Shown one piece after another: positions 13,980-22,398 of a stretch of DNA of 37,553 bases (positions are counted from its first letter, which is position 1; every line of letters begins with the position of its first letter). Source of the DNA: Clostridia bacterium (lineage in GTDB: Bacteria > Bacillota > Clostridia > Oscillospirales > Acutalibacteraceae). The stretch is from contig JAFTCX010000040.1 of assembly GCA_017454485.1 (NCBI GenBank), positions 1-37,553 on the forward strand. The letters run 5' to 3'. The notes under the pieces are model-generated. The model had not been told where the DNA came from, searched no databases, and saw only the letters and a list, made by a program, of their open reading frames with translations. The position numbers and the translations under genes were made by a program.

Positions 13980-14021
13980 AAGAAAACTCGTGAGATGAAT
14001 ACAAACCCATACACGTTGAAA

Positions 14022-14068
14022 AAGACGCTCTCAGAGGAACTCTTGTCTCTGAAAGCGTCTTGCTTTTG
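14022..14068 (+). terminator. Strong hairpin with T-rich tail
   Basis: AAGACGCT-TCAGAG pairs with CTCTGA-AGCGTCTT (14 bp with a small bulge), followed by TGCTTTTGTGCTTTTT. It is the best terminator after the SGNH gene. A 40-residue open frame that covers it is an artefact of the hairpin. Confidence 0.6.
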
Positions 14069-14123
14069 TGCTTTTTGGGCGGCTGTTTTGCATGAGAGTC
14101 TGTCTTTTTTGCAGTAGTTCTCT

Positions 14124-14153
14124 ATAAAAAACGGGCGGCCAATGGCCGCCCCT
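14124..14153 (-). terminator. GGCCGCCC repeat acting as ilvE terminator
   Basis: On the minus strand GGGCGGCC-ATT-GGCCGCCC is followed by GTTTTTT, a good terminator 35 bases past the ilvE stop. It is a reversed copy of the dispersed hairpin at 12387 and 22681. Next to it, 14156-14186 carries tandem GCTAACA / AGCTAACAG units. Confidence 0.7.
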
Positions 14154-14187
14154 ACTAACAGCTAATTGCTAACAGCTAACAGCTGAC

Positions 14188-15252
14188 TTAAACCGTCACT
14201 CTCCAGCCGCGCGTGTCTTCGCGCTTGCCCCACTGAATGCCGGTCAGCTCGTCATAGAGCTTCTGGGTCAGCTCGCCGATGCTGCCGTCGCCGATGTTCA
14301 TGACCTCGTCCTCATAACGCAGCTTGTTGACGGGGGAGACCACAGCGGCGGTGCCGGTGCCCCAAACTTCTTCAAGGGAACCGTCCTTCGCGGCAGCAAC
14401 AAGCTCATCTACGCTGATGCGGCGCTCTTCCACTTCGTAGCCCCAGTCGCGGCAAACGGTGAGGATGGAATCGCGGGTGACGCCGGGCAGGATGGAACCG
14501 TTGAGCATCGGGGTAACAACTTTACCGTTGATCTTGAACATGATGTTCATCGCGCCGACTTCTTCAATGTACTTGCGCTCCACGCCGTCCAGCCAAAGCA
14601 CCTGAGAATAACCGTCGTCGTGCGCCTTGACCTGGGCAATCAGGCTCGCTGCGTAGTTGCCGCCGGTCTTGGTGAAGCCCATGCCGCCTCTGACAGCGCG
14701 GACGTATTCATCTTCAATCCAGATGCCGACCGGCTCAAGGCCGCTTTCGTAGTAAGCGCCGGAGGGGGAGAGGATGACGATGAACAGATAGGTCTTGGAA
14801 GGCGCAACGCCGAGGAATTCGTCGGTGGCGATGATGAACGGACGAATGTACAGCGAGGTGCCGGGATCGGTCGGGATCCAGTCGCGGTCAACGTCAACAA
14901 CCGCTTTCACAGCGTCCACAAAGTCTTCCACCGGCAGCTCGGGGATCACAAGACGCTTGTTGGAATTGTTGGCGCGCTTTGCGTTCATGTCCGGGCGGAA
15001 CAGATAAACGCTGCCGTCCTCGCCCTTGTAGGCTTTCAGACCCTCGAACATTTCCTGACCGTAATGGAACACCATCGCGGACGGCGCAAGGGACAGATTC
15101 TGATAGGGAACGATGCGGGCGTCATGCCAGCCTTTGCCCTCGGTGTAGTTCATGACGAACATGTGGTCGGTGAAGATTTTGCCGAAACCGAGCGGTTGAC
15201 CCGGCGCGGGCTTTTGCTTCGGAGAAGTGGTTTTTGTGATTTTGATTTCCAT
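14188..15252 (-). CDS. ilvE: Branched-chain amino acid aminotransferase
   Basis: PLP enzyme that interconverts Ile, Leu, Val and their 2-oxo acids with glutamate/2-oxoglutarate. At 354 residues it is the longer (eukaryote/Firmicutes-like, fold IV) form. HYGQEMFEGLKAY (63-75) binds substrate; the PLP lysine is K195 in FTKTGGNYAAS; VLWLDGVERKYIEEVGAMNI and GSILPGVTRDSIL follow in standard order. AAAGGGTG lies ahead of ATG 15252. It is the last of a minus-strand series that starts at the T-box, separated from korC by three tandem repeats, so it may have its own promoter there. The context suggests the amination step of Ile synthesis from 2-oxo acids. Confidence 0.94.
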   Translation of the reverse strand: MEIKITKTTSPKQKPAPGQPLGFGKIFTDHMFVMNYTEGKGWHDARIVPYQNLSLAPSAMVFHYGQEMFEGLKAYKGEDGSVYLFRPDMNAKRANNSNKRLVIPELPVEDFVDAVKAVVDVDRDWIPTDPGTSLYIRPFIIATDEFLGVAPSKTYLFIVILSPSGAYYESGLEPVGIWIEDEYVRAVRGGMGFTKTGGNYAASLIAQVKAHDDGYSQVLWLDGVERKYIEEVGAMNIMFKINGKVVTPMLNGSILPGVTRDSILTVCRDWGYEVEERRISVDELVAAAKDGSLEEVWGTGTAAVVSPVNKLRYEDEVMNIGDGSIGELTQKLYDELTGIQWGKREDTRGWRVTV

Positions 15253-15274
15253 ATAGTTGCACCCTTTCTTATTT

Positions 15275-15896
15275 AATTCGGAATTCGGAATTCGGAATTC
15301 CGAATTGATGGACGCCGCGCTGCGCGCGATGCGTCAAATGTGTAGGATAAGCTGCGAAAAAATTTAATGATAGCCAATGATTTAAAAATATAATTTACGG
15401 ATTGTCAACCGTAGTGTACTTTTTGTCGCGGAGATAATCTTTTTTTATTTTCACTATTCCCGCGACCGCAATTCTGAATTCGGAATTCGGAATTCGGAAT
15501 TGATGGACGCCGCGCTGCGCGCGATGCGTCAAATGTGTAGGATAAGCTGCGAAAAAATTTAATGATAGCCTATGATTGAAAAAATATAATTTACGTATTG
15601 TCAACCGTAGTGCACTTTTCGTCGCGGAGACAATCTTTTTTTATTTTCACTATTCCCGCGACCGCAATTCGGAATTCCGAATTCGGAATTGATGGACGCC
15701 GCGCTGCGCGCGATGCGTCAAATGTGTAGGATAAGCTGCGCAAAAAATTTGATGATAGCCTATGATTGAAAAATATAATTTACGGATTGTCAACCGTAGT
15801 GCACTTTTCGTCGCGGAGACAATCTTTTTTTCTTTTCACTATTCCCGCGACCGCAATTCCGAATTCATAATTCCGAATTCCGAATTGCGAAGCGGA
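15275..15896. repeat. Three tandem about 190-bp repeats with GGAATTC joints
   Basis: Units begin at about 15302, 15497 and 15686 and are joined by tandem AATTCGG / GGAATTC runs. Each holds a GC-rich hairpin-like part (GACGCCGCGCTGCGCGCG), TGTGTAGGATAAGCTGCG, an AT-rich middle and TTTTCACTATTCCCGCGACC. They are nearly identical, differing by a few bases. On the minus strand each contains TTGACA followed by an AT-rich stretch, so they could supply a weak promoter to ilvE. No protein or RNA gene is supported in this 645-base gap. Confidence 0.85.
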
Positions 15897-15898
15897 AT

Positions 15899-16435
15899 TT
15901 ATTCCGCGAGCTCATACCCTGTTTTCAGCGCCTGCAAATTGACGTCGAGCAGGTTCATTTTGCGCGCGGGAATGACCTTTTTGAGCGCGTCTTCGGTGTG
16001 TTCAAAGCTCATGTCTTCGCTCTCCTTGAGGAGCTTGCCCATGAGGATCATGTTCGCCAGCGTGGAAAAGCCCGCGTTTTTCGCAAGCTCCGTGGCGGGC
16101 ACATAGCAAACGCGCACGTCGTCGCGTTCCACTTTGGCGGCAATCAGGGAGGAGTCCACAAGAATCAGTCCGCCGGGAACGACAGCGTTCTCATATTTTT
16201 TCAGCGAGGGCAGGTTCATTGCAACAAGGGTGTTCGGCTCGTTGACGATCGGGGAGCCGACCGGCTCATCACCGACGATGACGGAGCAGTTCGCCGTGCC
16301 GCCGCGCATTTCAGGGCCGTAGGAGGGGAGCCAGCTCACCTGTTTGTCTTCGATCAGACCTTTATTTGCAAGGAACTTTCCGGCAAACAGCACGCCCTGG
16401 CCGCCGAAGCCGGCAATCAGAATCTGGTTCATCAT
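15899..16435 (-). CDS. korC: 2-oxoacid:ferredoxin oxidoreductase, gamma subunit
   Basis: A 178-residue subunit of a ferredoxin-dependent 2-oxoacid oxidoreductase (VOR/KOR type), which oxidatively decarboxylates 2-oxo acids to acyl-CoA and CO2 or runs in reverse. [12 protein letters not shown] (9-20) and [13 protein letters not shown] (38-50) are diagnostic of the gamma domain that binds CoA. It overlaps the beta-subunit stop by four bases (ATGA), so the two are coupled. Last of the four subunit genes. Confidence 0.92.
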
Positions 16436-17190
16436 TTCGCTTCAGCCTCCTTTTGCGCCGTGCGGTCTTTATAAACGCCGAGCGGATAATACGGGATCAT
16501 GTTTTCTTCCAGCCATTGCAGCGCCTTTTCGGGCGAAAGGCCCCAGTTCGTCGGGCAGGAGGAGATCACTTCGATCAGAGAAAAGCCCTTGCCTTCCACT
16601 TGATTCTGGAACGCCTTTTTGATGGCCTTTTTGGCGGCGCGGATGTTTTTGACATTGTTGACCGCCACACGCTCAATGTATTCGGGACCCTCCAGCTGCG
16701 AGAGCATCTCGGAGATCTTTACGGGATAGCCGCAATGGTTGACGTCGCGGCCGTAGGGCGAGGTCTGGGTGACCTGACCGGGCAGGGTGGTCGGCGCCAT
16801 CTGACCGCCGGTCATGCCGTAGATTGCGTTGTTGACAAAGATCACGGTGATATTCTCGTTGCGCGTTGCGGCGTGTACGGTTTCGGCGGTGCCGATGGAG
16901 GCAAGGTCGCCGTCGCCCTGATAGGAAAACACAATGTTTTCCGGGTCGGCGCGTTTGATGCCGGTTGCAACGGCGGGTGCGCGTCCGTGCGCAGCTTCCA
17001 CCATGTCGCAGTTGAAATAGTTGTAGGCCATCACGGCGCAGCCGACAGGCGCAACGCCAATGGTTTTTCCTTCAATGCCGAGCTCGTCAATCGCTTCGGC
17101 AACCAGACGGTGAATGATGCCGTGGGTGCAGCCGGGGCAGTAGTGCAGCGGCACATCGCACAGAGATTTCGGTTTTTCAAAAACGACCAT
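16432..17190 (-). CDS. korB: 2-oxoacid:ferredoxin oxidoreductase, beta (TPP) subunit
   Basis: 252 residues; carries thiamine diphosphate and the catalytic centre. CDVPLHYCPGCTHGIIHR (about 11-28) has the conserved cysteines; YQGDGDLASIGTAETVHAA with VNNAIYGMTGGQMAPTT (about 88-125) is the TPP/Mg site (GDGD ... NN). SLIEVISSCPTNWG is typical of the VOR/KOR branch. The start overlaps the alpha stop by one base. Substrate is not fixed by the motifs; branched-chain or 2-oxoglutarate are both possible for the family. Confidence 0.93.
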   Translation of the reverse strand: MVVFEKPKSLCDVPLHYCPGCTHGIIHRLVAEAIDELGIEGKTIGVAPVGCAVMAYNYFNCDMVEAAHGRAPAVATGIKRADPENIVFSYQGDGDLASIGTAETVHAATRNENITVIFVNNAIYGMTGGQMAPTTLPGQVTQTSPYGRDVNHCGYPVKISEMLSQLEGPEYIERVAVNNVKNIRAAKKAIKKAFQNQVEGKGFSLIEVISSCPTNWGLSPEKALQWLEENMIPYYPLGVYKDRTAQKEAEAK

Positions 17191-18254
17191 TACGCTTGTC
17201 CTCCTTTGTCAGCTTCTTCAATGGCTGCGAGCACCTGTGCCGGAGACGGGATCATGCCGCCTGTGCGGTTGCACAGCGTCACCGGGCGTTTGCAGCGGGT
17301 GGCAAGTTCAATATCTTCCACCATCTGACCCATGTTCAGCTCCACGGAGATGAACTGTTTCACATGCTCCGCTGCGGCAAGCAGTGTCTTTTTCGGGAAC
17401 GGCCAAAGGGTGATCGGGCGGATGAGACCGACCTTGATGCCCTTTTTGCGCGCTTCGTTGATCGCGTTTTTGGAAACGCGCGCGGCAATTCCGAACGCAA
17501 CCACGCAAAGCTCGGCGTCGTCCATCAGGTATTCTTCGACCATCACTTCGTTCTCTTCAATCTGCTTGTAGCGCTCAAAGCGGGCAAAGTTGTTCTTTTC
17601 CAGCTCTTCCGGCTCAAGGAACAGGGAGTTGACGATGTTGTGCGGTCTTTCCATCTTTGTGCCGGTGACAGCCCAGGGCTTTTCATAGTGCTGCACTTCC
17701 ACCTCGCTGAGGTTGACCGGCTCCATCATCTGGCCGGTGGTGCCGTCGGCAAGGATCATCGCCGTCATGCGGTATTTGTCGGCAAGGTCAAAGCCCTTGA
17801 CGGTCAGGCTGGCCATCTCCTGCACGCTCGACGGCGCAAGAACAATCATTTTATAGTCGCCGTGGCCGCCGCCCTTGGTCGCCTGGAAATAGTCGGACTG
17901 GGAGGGCTGGATGCCGCCGAGGCCCGGGCCGCCGCGCTGGACGTTGACCACAAGGGCGGGCAGGTCGGAACCTGCAAGATAGGAGAGACCTTCGCTTTTC
18001 AGCGAGATTCCCGGGCTGGAAGAGGACGTCATGACGCGCTTGCCTGCGCCCGCAACGCCGTAGACCATGTTGATGGCCGCAATTTCACTTTCCGCCTGCA
18101 GGAAGCAGCCGCCGATCTTGGGCATTTTCTTTGCCATGTAAGCGGCGATCTCCGTCTGCGGGGTAATGGGATAACCGAAGTAGTGGCGGCAGCCGGCGAG
18201 AATGGCGGCTTCTGCGATCGCTTCGTTCCCCTTCATCAAAACTTTCTCAGACAT
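17190..18254 (-). CDS. vorB: 2-oxoacid:ferredoxin oxidoreductase, alpha subunit, VorB-like
   Basis: 354 residues, the pyrimidine-binding and C-terminal domains of the alpha subunit: KGNEAIAEAAILAGCRHYFG and YPITPQTEI at the N-terminus, TSSSSPGISLKSEGLSYLAG about 75-95, NVQRGGPGLGG at about 104, and NRTGGMIPSPAQVLAAI at the end. Sequences of this length and pattern are usually annotated VorB (3-methyl-2-oxobutanoate:ferredoxin oxidoreductase), which fits with the nearby branched-chain aminotransferase. The four-gene order delta-alpha-beta-gamma is the normal operon layout. GTGAGGTG lies ahead of the ATG. Confidence 0.92.
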   Translation of the reverse strand: MSEKVLMKGNEAIAEAAILAGCRHYFGYPITPQTEIAAYMAKKMPKIGGCFLQAESEIAAINMVYGVAGAGKRVMTSSSSPGISLKSEGLSYLAGSDLPALVVNVQRGGPGLGGIQPSQSDYFQATKGGGHGDYKMIVLAPSSVQEMASLTVKGFDLADKYRMTAMILADGTTGQMMEPVNLSEVEVQHYEKPWAVTGTKMERPHNIVNSLFLEPEELEKNNFARFERYKQIEENEVMVEEYLMDDAELCVVAFGIAARVSKNAINEARKKGIKVGLIRPITLWPFPKKTLLAAAEHVKQFISVELNMGQMVEDIELATRCKRPVTLCNRTGGMIPSPAQVLAAIEEADKGGQA

Positions 18255-18263
18255 TTTCGCACC

Positions 18264-18470
18264 TCACTTTTCCACTTTGATGATACAATCCGGACACATG
18301 GTTGCGCAGAACGCGCAGCCGATGCACTTGCTTTGATCGGTGATCTCGGCAGGGGAGTGTCCTTTTTGGTTGATCTTGTCCTTGGCGATCACAATGATCT
18401 GCTTCGGACAGACCATGGCGCACAGGCCGCAGCCTTTGCACCAGTCGGTTCTGAATGTGACTTTGGGCAT
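18264..18470 (-). CDS. Ferredoxin-type (delta) subunit of the 2-oxoacid oxidoreductase
   Basis: A 68-residue protein with two complete 4Fe-4S binding motifs, CKGCGLCAMVCP and CIGCAFCATMCP, each Cys-x2-Cys-x2-Cys-x3-Cys-Pro. It carries electrons between the TPP subunit and free ferredoxin. It lies nine bases ahead of the alpha subunit, with GGAAGG before its ATG. First of the four subunit genes, 41 bases after the P-loop ATPase gene. Confidence 0.93.
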   Translation of the reverse strand: MPKVTFRTDWCKGCGLCAMVCPKQIIVIAKDKINQKGHSPAEITDQSKCIGCAFCATMCPDCIIKVEK

Positions 18471-18511
18471 AAACTACCTTCCTTTCGTTCTCGGTAATAT
18501 TGCTTACAAAA

Positions 18512-19180
18512 TTATATAAGTTTTTCCTGCAGATGCAGCGGGAATACGTTTTCGTTCGCCAGCGCCTGTGCGTCGGCAAAATCTTCGCGCACACTTGTCA
18601 TCACCAGCGGCAGACCGGAAAGCGCGGAAAGCTCTTTTGCTTTTTGAGCGCCGAGGAGAATGTCATCGACCGCCGTCGCGTCGCCGATGTTGGAGTTGTT
18701 CACAATGCCGGTGAAGGGCAGGTGACAGGCCGTTTCAATGTCACGCAGAACCTCCAGCGCTTCCTGCGCTGTTTTTGTCAGCGGGCGGAAAAAATTTGAC
18801 ACAAAAAGCATATCGTAATTGCCTTCCGCTTTGATCTGGTCGGCAAATCTGCCGAGCGCCACGGCGCCCTGATCGTCGCCGCCGATATCGAGCACACAAA
18901 ACGTATCGTGGTCGGCAATCGGACGCTGCATCGCGGCAGGCAAAGCAGGGATGTCAAGGTTGGAGCCGGCATAATCGGAGCAGATCAGCTCCACACCGGC
19001 GGCGTCCAACTCTGTTTGACTGTCCTTCGTGCGAAAATAGGGGTTCACGATGTCGAGGTCCAGAATGGCAACCTTTTGGTGCGTCTGCCGAAGATGCAGA
19101 GCGAAGTTCACGGCAATGTTCGTTTTTCCGCTGCCGTAGTGGCCGCAAAAGATCGTAATGCGTTTGGGGTGGTTGGACAT
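18512..19180 (-). CDS. P-loop ATPase, MinD/ParA-like, of unknown role
   Basis: A 222-residue NTPase. Walker A is GHYGSGKTNIAVNFALHL (about 13-30), then a SIMIBI-type VAILDLDIVNPYFRTKD and VLDIGGDDQGA where MinD relatives have the switch regions. It is not a standard MinD, Mrp or nucleotide-loading protein by any motif I recognise. The start at 19180 has GGAGG at good spacing; longer in-frame starts run into the repeat element. It lies just before the oxidoreductase genes on the same strand and may be co-transcribed; a role in assembling or inserting a cofactor, as for other SIMIBI ATPases, is only a guess. Confidence 0.8.
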   Translation of the reverse strand: MSNHPKRITIFCGHYGSGKTNIAVNFALHLRQTHQKVAILDLDIVNPYFRTKDSQTELDAAGVELICSDYAGSNLDIPALPAAMQRPIADHDTFCVLDIGGDDQGAVALGRFADQIKAEGNYDMLFVSNFFRPLTKTAQEALEVLRDIETACHLPFTGIVNNSNIGDATAVDDILLGAQKAKELSALSGLPLVMTSVREDFADAQALANENVFPLHLQEKLI

Positions 19181-19205
19181 AGAAACCTCCAGATGAGGGA
19201 AGATA

Positions 19206-19456
19206 ATTCGGAATTCGGAATTCGGAATTCCGAATTCCGAATTGTGGGGCGCCGCCTGCGGCGATGCGCCAAAGTGCTTACAAGCAATTGTAATTTGGAC
19301 TTGATGGAGCGAAGGTGTCCGTCTGATTGAAAAATATGATTTGCGGATTGTCACCCGAAGCGCACTTTTCGTCGCGGAGGATACTTGTATTTCAGTTCCA
19401 CTTTTTCCGCGACCGCAATTCCGCATTCCGCATTCCGCATTCCGAATTCCGAATTC
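19206..19456. repeat. Diverged fourth copy of the GGAATTC-bounded repeat
   Basis: Starts and ends in tandem GGAATTC / TTCCGCA units. The middle shares GATTGAAAAATATGATTTGC, GGATTGTCACCCGAAGCGCA and CACTTTTCGTCGCGGAG with the three tandem units at 15275-15896, but the GC-rich part differs (GGCGCCGCCTGCGGCGATGC). It separates the acyl-CoA synthetase gene from the ATPase gene. Confidence 0.8.
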
Positions 19457-19478
19457 ACAAATTGTAAAGCCGAGGGCT

Positions 19479-21749
19479 TTACAATTTGCTGCGAATGATT
19501 TTCCCGCTGATCGTCTTGGGCAGATCGTCGCGGAAGACCACAATGCGCGGATATTTATAGGGCGCGGTGTTCGTTTTCACGTAGGTCTGGATCTCTTTTT
19601 TGAGCGCTTCGCTCGGCTCGGTGCCCTTGGTGAGCACAACGCTCGCCTTCACCACCTGGCCGCGCACCTCGTCCGGCGCCGCGGAAACGCCGCATTCCAG
19701 CACATAGGGCAGCTCCATGATGACGTTTTCGATCTCGAACGGTCCGATGCGGTAGCCGGAGGATTTGATCACATCGTCGATGCGGCTGACATACCAGTAA
19801 TAGCCGTCCTCATCGCGCCAGGCGGTGTCGCCAGTGTGATACATCCCGTCGCGGCAGGCTTCCGCCGTCTGTTCTTCGCTGCCATAGTATTCCATGAACA
19901 ATCCACAGGGCTTGCCTTTGTCAAGGCGCACAACAATTTCGCCGGTCTCGCCGGTGTCCACCGGGTTGCCGTCGGGGTCCACAAGGTCAATATCGTAAGA
20001 GGGGATCGCCTTGCCCATCGCGCCCGGCTTCGGCGTTGTGCCGAACAAATTGCCGATCGTCAGCGTGGTCTCGGTTTGACCGAAGCCTTCAAAGATCGTA
20101 AGACCGGTCGCCTCCTTGAAGCGATAAAAGACCTCGGGGTTGAGCGCTTCGCCGGCCGTTGTGGCATATTGGATGGAGGACAGGTCATATTTGGACAGAT
20201 CCTCTTTGATGAACATACGATACATCGTCGGCGGAGCGCAGAAGGTGGTGATGTTGTATTTTTTAAACATCGGCAGGATATCGTCGGCGTGGAAGCGGTC
20301 AAAGTCATAGGTGAAGACCGCGCCCTCGCACATCCACTGTCCGTAAAGCTTGCCCCAAAGGGCTTTGCCCCAGCCGGTGTCGGAGATGGTGAAATGCAGT
20401 CCGTCGGAGCGGACGGTGTGCCAGTATTTGGCGGTGATGTAATGCCCGAGTGCATATTTATAGTTGTGCAAAACAATCTTCGGGTAGCCCGTTGTGCCGG
20501 AAGAGAAGAACATCAGCATCGGGTCGCTGCCGCAGGGCGTTTCGTCTGTGCGCGGGAACACGCTGCGGAACATGGTGTATTCCTCATCAAAGCAGTGCCA
20601 GCCGTCGCGTTTGCCGTGGACGATGACTTTCACCGCGCGCTCACCGACGGTTTTTTCGGCCTTTTCCACTTCGGCCGCCGTGTTGTCGTCGGCAGTGCAG
20701 ACAATCGCCTTGACATCGGCGCGCTCAAAGCGATATTCAAAATCGTGCGCGAGCAGCTGATGTGTTGCCGGAATGGGGATGGCGCCGATCTTGTGCAGCG
20801 CAAGGATGGAATACCAGAACTCAAGGTGACGCTTGAGCACCAGCATGACACGGTCGCCCTTCTTGATGCCGAGGCTTTTGAAATAGTTTGCCGTGCGTGC
20901 GGAGTTCCGTTTCATATCCAGGAAAGTGATCCGCTGTTCGACCTTGTCTTTGGAGACGTGAAGCATTGCCAGCTTGTCGGGATCGCGGTCGGCGATGGCG
21001 TCCACAACGTCATAGGCGAAGTTGAATTTTTCCTCGTTTTTGAAGGCGAGGGAGAGCAGGTGTCCTTTTTCGTCCTCGGTGGCGTCGATGAACGGGCTGA
21101 TGGCGAAGGTCTGCGCTTTTCCGGCGGAGACGATGGTCTCTTCCACTTTGGTGTCGCTGACCTTTTTATCGTCGGGCATCACGACCGCGAGGAAGGAGCA
21201 GTCCTTGCCGTTCATGGCAATCATACCGTGGGGCAGGCCGCTGTTATAGTAGATGCTGTCGCCCTCTTCCAGCACGACCTCGTGCCCGTCGACCTGCACC
21301 TTCAGCGTGCCTTCCAGCACAAGGTCGAACTCCTGACCGGCGTGGGTCGTCGTGTGGATCGGGCGGTTTTGCAGCTTTTCGTTGTAATCGTATTTTGCAA
21401 GATAGGGCTTGGCGATTTTTCCGCGGAACAGCGGCGCAAGCTTGCGGATCTCGATGCCGTCCTCTTTTGCGGTGCGGATCGCCTGACCCTTTCGAGTCAC
21501 GGTGTAAGTGGACAGATGCGCAGACTGTCCTTCCAACAAGTCCGTAATGCCGATGCCGAACGCGAAAGCGCATTTGTGAATGAAGGTGAACGGCAGATCG
21601 ACCGTTGCCGTCTCATAGGAAATGTACTGTGCTTCACTCAGTTCGGTTTTTTGTGCCATTTCAGCGGTGGAATAGCCGTAAATCTGACGCATCTCGCGAA
21701 TTCGTTCCGCCACCTGCTGTACTTCGTTGGAAAGGTGATTTTTCTGCAT
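19479..21749 (-). CDS. HTH-cupin-acyl-CoA synthetase fusion protein
   Basis: A 756-residue fusion. About residues 10-72: XRE-type HTH (RIREMRQIYGYSTAEMAQKT, then GIGITDLLEG). About 125-192: cupin (HTTTHAGQEFDLVLEG, SIYYNSGLPHGMIAM). From about 235: an acyl-CoA synthetase that adenylates a carboxylic acid and transfers it to CoA, with MFFSSGTTGYPKIVLHN (ATP loop), FEGFGQTET, TGDTAWRDEDGYYWYVSRID and the C-terminal LPKTISGKIIRSKL with the catalytic lysine. The domain resembles medium/branched-chain (MACS-type) synthetases. ATG 21749 is preferred over 21755: GGAGG is 8 bases from it, but only 2 from the other. Controlled by the T-box leader directly upstream. Substrate is inference from context. 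Confidence 0.88.
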   Translation of the reverse strand: MQKNHLSNEVQQVAERIREMRQIYGYSTAEMAQKTELSEAQYISYETATVDLPFTFIHKCAFAFGIGITDLLEGQSAHLSTYTVTRKGQAIRTAKEDGIEIRKLAPLFRGKIAKPYLAKYDYNEKLQNRPIHTTTHAGQEFDLVLEGTLKVQVDGHEVVLEEGDSIYYNSGLPHGMIAMNGKDCSFLAVVMPDDKKVSDTKVEETIVSAGKAQTFAISPFIDATEDEKGHLLSLAFKNEEKFNFAYDVVDAIADRDPDKLAMLHVSKDKVEQRITFLDMKRNSARTANYFKSLGIKKGDRVMLVLKRHLEFWYSILALHKIGAIPIPATHQLLAHDFEYRFERADVKAIVCTADDNTAAEVEKAEKTVGERAVKVIVHGKRDGWHCFDEEYTMFRSVFPRTDETPCGSDPMLMFFSSGTTGYPKIVLHNYKYALGHYITAKYWHTVRSDGLHFTISDTGWGKALWGKLYGQWMCEGAVFTYDFDRFHADDILPMFKKYNITTFCAPPTMYRMFIKEDLSKYDLSSIQYATTAGEALNPEVFYRFKEATGLTIFEGFGQTETTLTIGNLFGTTPKPGAMGKAIPSYDIDLVDPDGNPVDTGETGEIVVRLDKGKPCGLFMEYYGSEEQTAEACRDGMYHTGDTAWRDEDGYYWYVSRIDDVIKSSGYRIGPFEIENVIMELPYVLECGVSAAPDEVRGQVVKASVVLTKGTEPSEALKKEIQTYVKTNTAPYKYPRIVVFRDDLPKTISGKIIRSKL

Positions 21750-21767
21750 TGTCATGTCCTCCTTATT

Positions 21768-22049
21768 TTAAAAAATAAGCCCGCCTCAAAGAAATCCTTT
21801 GAGACGAGCATTGTTTCAATACCCGCGGTACCACTCAAATTGCGGAAGGCCGCCACTCTCGGGTTCTAACAAACCCCATGCATTGACGCAGCAATCACGG
21901 AAGACACTACTCGCGCTTGTTTTCGCATCTTCAGCTCGGAAGGGATGGGACACTGAGAGGGTGTTCCTGCCGGGCTTTCACCGCCCCCGGCTCGCTGAAA
22001 GATCGTTCTCTCGTCCGTCTTCGTCACAGCTTTTTGTTGTTATTCACTT
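21768..22049 (-). promoter_or_regulatory. T-box leader, specifier read as ATC (isoleucine)
   Basis: Minus strand. The T-box sequence GAGTGGTACCGCGGGTAT is present (21823-21840), followed by the terminator GTCTCAAAG / CTTTGAGGC and a T-run (21770-21806). Upstream, the stem I apical signature GCGAGCCGGGGGCGGTGAAA and GCCCGGC is clear. The specifier lies in TGTCCCATCCCTTCCGAGC (21935-21953), six bases before the conserved GAGC as in B. subtilis glyQS; that reads ATC, Ile. The base after it is C rather than the usual A, which leaves some doubt. High uncharged tRNA-Ile would let transcription continue into the synthetase gene. Confidence 0.85.
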
Positions 22050-22055
22050 GAAAGA

Positions 22056-22084
22056 AGTTTAACACTTCCAAACGGAATTGTCAA
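22056..22084 (-). promoter_or_regulatory. Sigma-A promoter of the T-box leader
   Basis: Minus strand TTGACA, 17-base spacer, TAAACT. It places the transcript start just ahead of the T-box stem I. Confidence 0.65.
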
Positions 22085-22134
22085 GCTTTTTTTGCTCGCT
22101 CAAAGAAAAACCGTTTTGGCGAAAGACGTGCGCC

Positions 22135-22398
22135 TTATTCGGCGAAGCCGGATTCCACCAGTTTTACCAGCGCGTCAACCGCTTCCTGTTCGTCTGCGCC
22201 GCCGGCGATGATGCGGATGTCTGTGCCGCCCATGATGCCAAGAGAAAGGACGCCGAGCAAGCTCTTTGCGTTGACTCTTCTTTCTTCCTTTTCAACCCAG
22301 ATGGAAGATTTGAATTCGTTCGCCTTCTGGATGAAGAACGTTGCCGGACGCGCGTGAAGGCCAACCTGATTCTGAACTTTTACATCTTTCACGTACAT
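22135..22398 (-). CDS. ptsH: HPr-family phosphocarrier protein
   Basis: 87 residues, the normal HPr length. The phosphorylatable His 15 is in NQVGLHARPAT and the regulatory Ser 46 in NAKSLLGVLSLGI, so both PTS phosphotransfer and HPr-kinase regulation (catabolite repression) are possible. No enzyme I or PTS genes are adjacent. GGAGA lies ahead of the ATG and a promoter lies about 50 bases upstream. Canonical residues point to HPr rather than Crh, which lacks His 15. Confidence 0.93.
   Translation of the reverse strand: MYVKDVKVQNQVGLHARPATFFIQKANEFKSSIWVEKEERRVNAKSLLGVLSLGIMGGTDIRIIAGGADEQEAVDALVKLVESGFAE

Follow-up and report, generated by a model that had tools for sequence, protein, structure and literature searches.

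A gene cluster on the minus strand of a contig from a Clostridia bacterium raises the question whether isoleucine could be made there from a branched fatty acid under the control of a T-box. The window, by which we mean the whole stretch of 37,553 nucleotides that was analysed (contig JAFTCX010000040.1), had earlier been read from its letters as carrying a T-box leader with an Ile specifier, an acyl-CoA synthetase fusion, a P-loop ATPase, a complete four-subunit VOR and ilvE. Here we present a computational analysis of this locus, of the genome that contains it and of related loci.

Gene content and signals of the locus

The region 14130-22090 carries on its minus strand, in this order, a promoter-like site, the T-box, the synthetase fusion, the P-loop ATPase, a ferredoxin, VorB, VOR beta, VOR gamma, IlvE and a terminator-like hairpin. 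All parts named in the original prediction were found where it had placed them, on that strand and in that order, which confirmed its observation of the locus. The features are the following.

22056..22084, minus strand: sigma-70-like promoter, TTGACA-17-TAAACT (consensus scan, 10/12 matches, TG ahead of the second hexamer; by itself no proof of function)
21797..22036, minus strand: T-box leader (RF00230, 75 bits, E 1.4e-16; covarying stems in 29 leaders)
21944..21946, minus strand: specifier codon AUC (Ile), ATC in DNA (position rule, which agreed with the amino acid expected for 6 control T-boxes of the genome)
21830..21833, minus strand: UGGU of the T-box bulge (sequence)
21779..21809, minus strand: intrinsic terminator of the leader, 14 pairs and a T-run (scan; kept across the alignment of 29 leaders)
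19479..21755, minus strand: HTH(XRE)-cupin-acyl-CoA synthetase fusion, 758 aa, AMP-forming (Pfam; AlphaFold model; nearest solved structure 3ETC)
18512..19183, minus strand: P-loop ATPase, CbiA/ParA-like (Pfam; found again in relatives, between synthetase and VOR)
18264..18470, minus strand: VOR delta, a 2x[4Fe-4S] ferredoxin (Pfam cut-off passed)
17190..18254, minus strand: VorB, VOR alpha (NF005507, 548 bits, cut-off 399)
16432..17190, minus strand: VOR beta, TPP (PF02775, above cut-off)
15899..16435, minus strand: VOR gamma (PF01558, above cut-off)
15283..15859, minus strand: three tandem copies of an interspersed repeat of about 193 nt, between VOR gamma and ilvE (repeat search; a fourth, diverged copy at 19220-19421)
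14188..15252, minus strand: IlvE, branched-chain aminotransferase (TIGR01123, 419 bits, cut-off 250)
14133..14151, minus strand: terminator-like hairpin past ilvE (8 G-C pairs and a T-run)

The VOR is predicted from sequence to consist of four subunits. VorB scored above its NCBIfam cut-off and the gamma, beta and ferredoxin subunits above their Pfam cut-offs; beta, gamma and delta stayed below the NCBIfam equivalog cut-offs. The scan for signals gave 11 promoter-like sites against 3.9 in shuffled sequences, and 14 terminator-like sites against 12.4, which for the sites as a set is no excess. Downstream of the leader, the hairpin at 14151-14133 past ilvE was the strongest terminator-like site of the minus strand.

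The fusion (19479-21755) links a metabolic enzyme with a cupin sensor and an HTH that would bind DNA. The HTH_19 model matched the N-terminus of the window protein with only 18.9 bits (cut-off 30.2); it matched 59/59 of the aligned fusion homologues, the best with an E of 8e-13. The AlphaFold model of the fusion (mean pLDDT 83) comprises five N-terminal helices, a run of strands at the Pfam cupin and the synthetase domain, which by fold, too, has 3ETC as its nearest solved structure. Because the best 50 matches of a fold search with this model were synthetases only, with no HTH or cupin structure among them, the assignment of these two domains rests on Pfam and on the helices and strands of the model. 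The HTH-cupin part is possibly a second layer of control, by the acid or by the acyl-CoA.

The P-loop ATPase (18512-19183) recurs beside VOR and synthetase, and was also seen in a module without readable T-box (locus L275). The 193-nt repeat has GAATTC-rich ends and 70 matches in the genome, to the whole repeat or to parts of it, spread across many contigs.

The T-box leader and its specifier codon

With 75 bits the leader lies under the curated gathering score of RF00230, which is 93, and is absent at the gathering threshold. T-boxes before thrS, alaS and a trpB-like gene in the same genome also fell under 93 (82.9, 81.4 and 75.4 bits), and the cut-off therefore looks strict for this lineage. 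We treated the missed score as a matter of curation threshold and as no biological feature. Both the UGGN...ACCGCG T-box bulge and the terminator are present in the window leader; the UGGU presumably pairs with the ...ACCA of the tRNA.

Nine T-boxes were found in the genome. As specifier we took the triplet that lies nine bases ahead of the GAG found at the 3' base of Stem I. Since GAG also occurs elsewhere in each leader, position within Stem I decided which site was used; in the trpB-like leader the chosen site is GAGG, not GAGC. In six controls the rule gave UUC for pheS, UGC for cysE/cysS, GUC for valS, ACC for thrS, GCC for alaS and UGG for the trpB-like gene, and in further T-boxes of the genome GUC for ilvB and CUC for a LeuA-like gene. 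The genes behind these T-boxes scored over their NCBIfam cut-offs, except for the LeuA-like one (NF002086, 310 bits, cut-off 532). By the same rule, right in 6/6 controls, the specifier of the window leader reads ATC at 21946-21944 on the minus strand, in agreement with the Ile codon proposed earlier. Other codons in the 3' strand AGUGUCCCAUCC (UCC, GUC, CCC) were excluded as specifier by alignment to T-boxes of the same genome and to homologues.

For the leader alignment 35 leaders were drawn, of which 29 were used and six left out. As they had been chosen among leaders already read as ATC, the invariance of this codon in the alignment is the product of selection and was not used as evidence. 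In the 29 leaders 35/58 predicted pairs have both partners altered in one sequence or more; given the choice of leaders, this covariation is evidence for the fold and not for the codon. Folded as a single sequence, the leader showed no excess of stability (z -0.75). Taken together, the window leader is supported as a predicted Ile T-box that would respond to uncharged tRNA-Ile.

The specifier loop (21940-22030) does not contain the AGUA/GAA letters of the Rfam consensus. Many relatives instead have ACGGA in the 5' strand, with UCC or the like in the 3' strand. The changed letters may represent a variant T-box specifier loop.

The fused synthetase, its pocket and its paralogues

The solved structure closest to the fusion was MacsMa, the acyl-CoA synthetase of Methanosarcina acetivorans (PDB 3ETC; 616 bits, next 348). 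The match spans residues 213-756 of the window protein, whereas the solved chain lacks the HTH-cupin part. MacsMa prefers 2-methylbutyrate, and its Trp259 is critical for substrate binding; no T-box control is described for it in the passages of this source (PMC10455477). In an alignment of 59 of 61 fusion proteins, with positions paired to MacsMa by eye, Trp259 and the CoA-site residues Tyr460, Arg490, Lys519, Tyr525 and Tyr527 correspond to W467, Y668, R698, K727, Y733 and Y735 of the window protein, all of them invariant in 59/59. The pocket Trp is thus conserved.

Among NCBIfam models the best match of the fusion was MbcS of Staphylococcus aureus (NF047394, 435 bits); the cut-off is 850 and the fusion is not classed as MbcS, and this model covers the synthetase domain only. 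MbcS acts on branched C4-C5 acids and feeds lipid synthesis, and is described as selective for 2-methylbutyrate and isobutyrate and poor on isovalerate (passages of PMC10026030). By analogy, this weakness on isovalerate would fit a system in which Leu is served by other genes.

To relate the window to its relatives, the fusion was searched in 59 of them, 56 of which gave a match of some kind at E <= 0.001, and across 394 genomes of the order, where 238 reached E <= 1e-140 among the matches listed. A further 80 loci, the best 80 of 593 candidates from a scan of named genomes, are all titled as MAGs or as uncultured bacteria, and many carry the names of ruminant samples. The order fusion, P-loop ATPase, ferredoxin and VOR recurs in relatives, often with short gaps and with ilvE before or after; some fusions, chiefly those of distant relatives, have no adjoining VOR.

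The synthetase is duplicated in relatives, where we found 78 distinct tandem pairs. Wherever both specifiers could be read (58/58 pairs), the upstream gene had an Ile and the downstream gene a Val specifier; the other 20 pairs, with at least one specifier missing or unread, hold none that contradicts this order. The paralogue with the Val T-box shares the same VOR and IlvE with the Ile-type synthetase. A midpoint-rooted tree of 244 fusions (identical proteins removed, at least 600 aligned residues each) consists of an Ile clade of 163 and a Val clade of 81 proteins. Their T-box labels were 144 Ile and 65 Val, with 28 proteins lacking a T-box match and 7 having an unread specifier. The Ile/Val labels change once on the tree, compared with at least 46 changes in 200 shuffles.

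Nine alignment columns separate the two clades at >80% conservation per clade, and one of them, position 463, lies in the synthetase domain. It corresponds to Gly255 of MacsMa, four residues ahead of the pocket Trp259, and is Gly in 162/163 proteins of the Ile clade and Ala in 81/81 of the Val clade. A bulkier Ala side chain is the direction that would be expected for a substrate smaller by one carbon. Split HTH-cupin and ligase paralogues were examined at 25 loci, and the two with a readable T-box (L057, Ile with Gly; L049, Val with Ala) agree with this pocket rule. The 23 split loci without readable T-box have 20 Ala, 2 Leu and 1 Met at this position; Ala is therefore the usual residue, with Gly characteristic of the Ile type and of MacsMa. 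We infer from the sequence that the window synthetase would prefer 2-methylbutyrate.

At L275:165-5785 and L277:56-4875, VOR was found with split HTH-cupin and ligase genes, no readable T-box and Ala as the pocket residue; these are perhaps a related module for another acid.

The original prediction had assigned Ile, Val and Leu to one operon. Its Ile part was supported. The window assembly yielded no fused synthetase other than the Ile-type one, and Val from isobutyrate is therefore better assigned to the downstream Val T-box paralogue of the relatives; Leu codons are read by the T-box of a separate module. This module, which often adjoins the Ile operon, comprises a LeuA-like protein, a TIM-barrel/acyl-CoA ligase fusion and an amidohydrolase. 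We collected 63 distinct LeuA-like genes, 37 with a readable T-box, 3 with an unread one and 23 without T-box match, and all 37 readable specifiers were Leu codons (29 CUC, 7 CUG, 1 CUU). The module is a possible novel route to Leu. At L264:5621-10426 (G000:C7) a Leu T-box (CUC) precedes the LeuA-like gene, the TIM-barrel/acyl-CoA ligase fusion and the amidohydrolase; a LeuC-type gene was not found in this genome, which is that of the window.

Usual branched-chain synthesis, rival explanations and meaning

It had been suggested to check whether the genome lacks ilvA or cimA, ilvC and ilvD, and none of these was found in the window assembly (2.42 Mb, 90 contigs, 87% complete). For ilvC and ilvD there was no match, and for ilvA none at its level in the assembly (best 66 bits, cut-off 379). 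cimA is counted as not found because the only HMGL-like protein in the assembly is the divergent LeuA-like one. A LeuC-type gene was not found there either, the single aconitase-family gene being a 779-codon frame of TCA size, not LeuC size. As the assembly is fragmented and 87% complete, single absences are weak. Acetolactate synthase large and small subunits (ilvBN) are present, over their cut-offs and under a Val T-box (GUC), and their retention without ilvC or ilvD counts against the explanation that we prefer below. At L263:7523-9854 (G000:C36) ilvBN stand alone under this T-box, with no ilvC beside them and neither ilvC nor ilvD found in the genome.

We compared the presence of ilvC with that of the fusion by Fisher test, on counts taken without regard to the kinship of the genomes, with full-length fusions defined as E <= 1e-230 and the window genome left out. 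Among the matches listed, ilvC occurred in 115/156 genomes of the order without fusion match, in 55/97 with weaker matches and in 33/140 with the full-length fusion. Both paralogues were present in at least 39 genomes seen in the fetched loci, and ilvC in 3/39 of these (absent in 36/39); G148, G199, G265 and G392, which have two listed fusion matches on separate contigs, were not counted among the 39. In the family of the window ilvC was found in 30/30 genomes without full-length fusion compared with 5/12 with it (counted by eye among the matches listed, window genome left out). The genus of the window showed no link with ilvC loss (15/27 with fusion, 4/6 without), and the Ile operon can therefore be an addition there and not a replacement.

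We consider it probable, at roughly 0.8, that the operon is a T-box-controlled salvage system making Ile from 2-methylbutyrate. The specifier, the gene content, the unfound ilvA, cimA, ilvC and ilvD, and the Val T-box paralogue that in relatives shares VOR and IlvE support this reading, which was also that of the original prediction. A T-box switches genes on under starvation for its amino acid, here Ile. Upon Ile shortage, uncharged tRNA-Ile would read the AUC specifier and stabilise the antiterminator, and transcription would read through the terminator of the leader into the operon. The fused synthetase would then convert 2-methylbutyrate to 2-methylbutyryl-CoA (ATP to AMP), VOR with reduced ferredoxin would carboxylate this to 3-methyl-2-oxopentanoate, and IlvE would transaminate the keto acid to Ile.

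VOR and IlvE are reversible and AMP-forming ligases favour acid activation. The first property would permit catabolism, in which Ile is turned via keto acid and acyl-CoA into 2-methylbutyrate for energy, and VOR beside split HTH-cupin and ligase genes without readable T-box (L275, L277) points the same way; induction on Ile starvation, the direction of the ligase and the association with ilvC loss where both paralogues occur argue against it, and we regard it as the least likely of the readings weighed. That the operon provides membrane lipids with branched acyl-CoA primers, in the way of MbcS in S. aureus, the best NCBIfam match (PMC10026030), is very unlikely too, because this role would call for no VOR or IlvE in the operon and for no division of amino-acid-specific T-boxes among the paralogues.

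More weight, while still unlikely, falls to the same chemistry with a broader scope, in which the lone synthetase here also takes isobutyrate, so that Val and perhaps Leu would come from the Ile-controlled operon as well. This would suit a genome in which only an Ile-type synthetase and neither ilvC nor ilvD were found, and MbcS accepts both acids (passages of PMC10026030); however, in relatives a distinct paralogue is kept under a Val T-box, with Ala for Gly beside the pocket Trp, and ilvBN are retained here under a Val T-box. It is improbable, in our view, that the T-box governs the synthetase alone, with vor and ilvE on their own promoters past the repeats. Repeats do lie between the fusion and the P-loop gene and between gamma and ilvE, with two weak hairpins in those ahead of ilvE, but many relatives have the same gene set with short gaps, and the minus-strand promoter-like sites in 14000-22200, the leader's aside, are all inside the fusion gene. 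In the preferred salvage reading the T-box would reach over vor and ilvE in one transcript across the repeats.

Reductive carboxylation, which the original prediction had named as established rumen physiology, is indeed described for rumen bacteria and methanogens, from 2-methylbutyrate to Ile, isobutyrate to Val and isovalerate to Leu (passages of PMC7356843 and PMC10658910), and 2-methylbutyrate and isobutyrate are described as the precursors of Ile and Val, respectively, in rumen fermentation (PMC7356843). The chemistry proposed here is the same; those passages name no genes, whereas this study adds a gene set, T-box control and synthetase paralogues matched to the amino acid. Compared with the T-boxes of amino acid and tRNA synthetase genes, the window leader has the same specifier, antiterminator and terminator, but it would control acid salvage and not de novo synthesis, and its specifier loop is without the Rfam AGUA/GAA letters. 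A T-box-led vor or acyl-CoA synthetase operon was not found in titles and abstract openings of open-licence PMC text, among the matches listed, in line with the original prediction, which knew of no such set; T-box regulon tables (supplement of PMC3766115) and TBDB (PMC7778990) may already hold such leaders. As far as open PMC text goes, the rumen chemistry and T-boxes as a kind are known already, and the T-box-addressed gene set, with its synthetase paralogues divided according to amino acid, is new.

The description of branched volatile acids as growth factors for ruminococci goes back to the 1960s, by a title among the references of PMC7356843. The gene set, the regulatory signal and the substrate prediction for each synthetase provide candidate genes for this process, so that the old rumen physiology becomes testable gene by gene, and in uncultured bacteria of the gut and rumen the T-box specifiers label the function of the enzymes. 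For the order of gut Clostridia we tentatively propose, at somewhat less than even chance given the missing link with ilvC loss in the window's genus, that several lineages have replaced or backed up de novo branched-chain synthesis with tRNA-addressed acid salvage. Each synthetase would have its own T-box (Ile, Val, and Leu via the separate module) and all would feed one VOR and one IlvE; the Gly-to-Ala pocket change would have come together with the specifier after one duplication, and the synthetase may also be a DNA-binding sensor via its HTH-cupin part. The finding also suggests a dependence of such bacteria on branched acids released by their neighbours.
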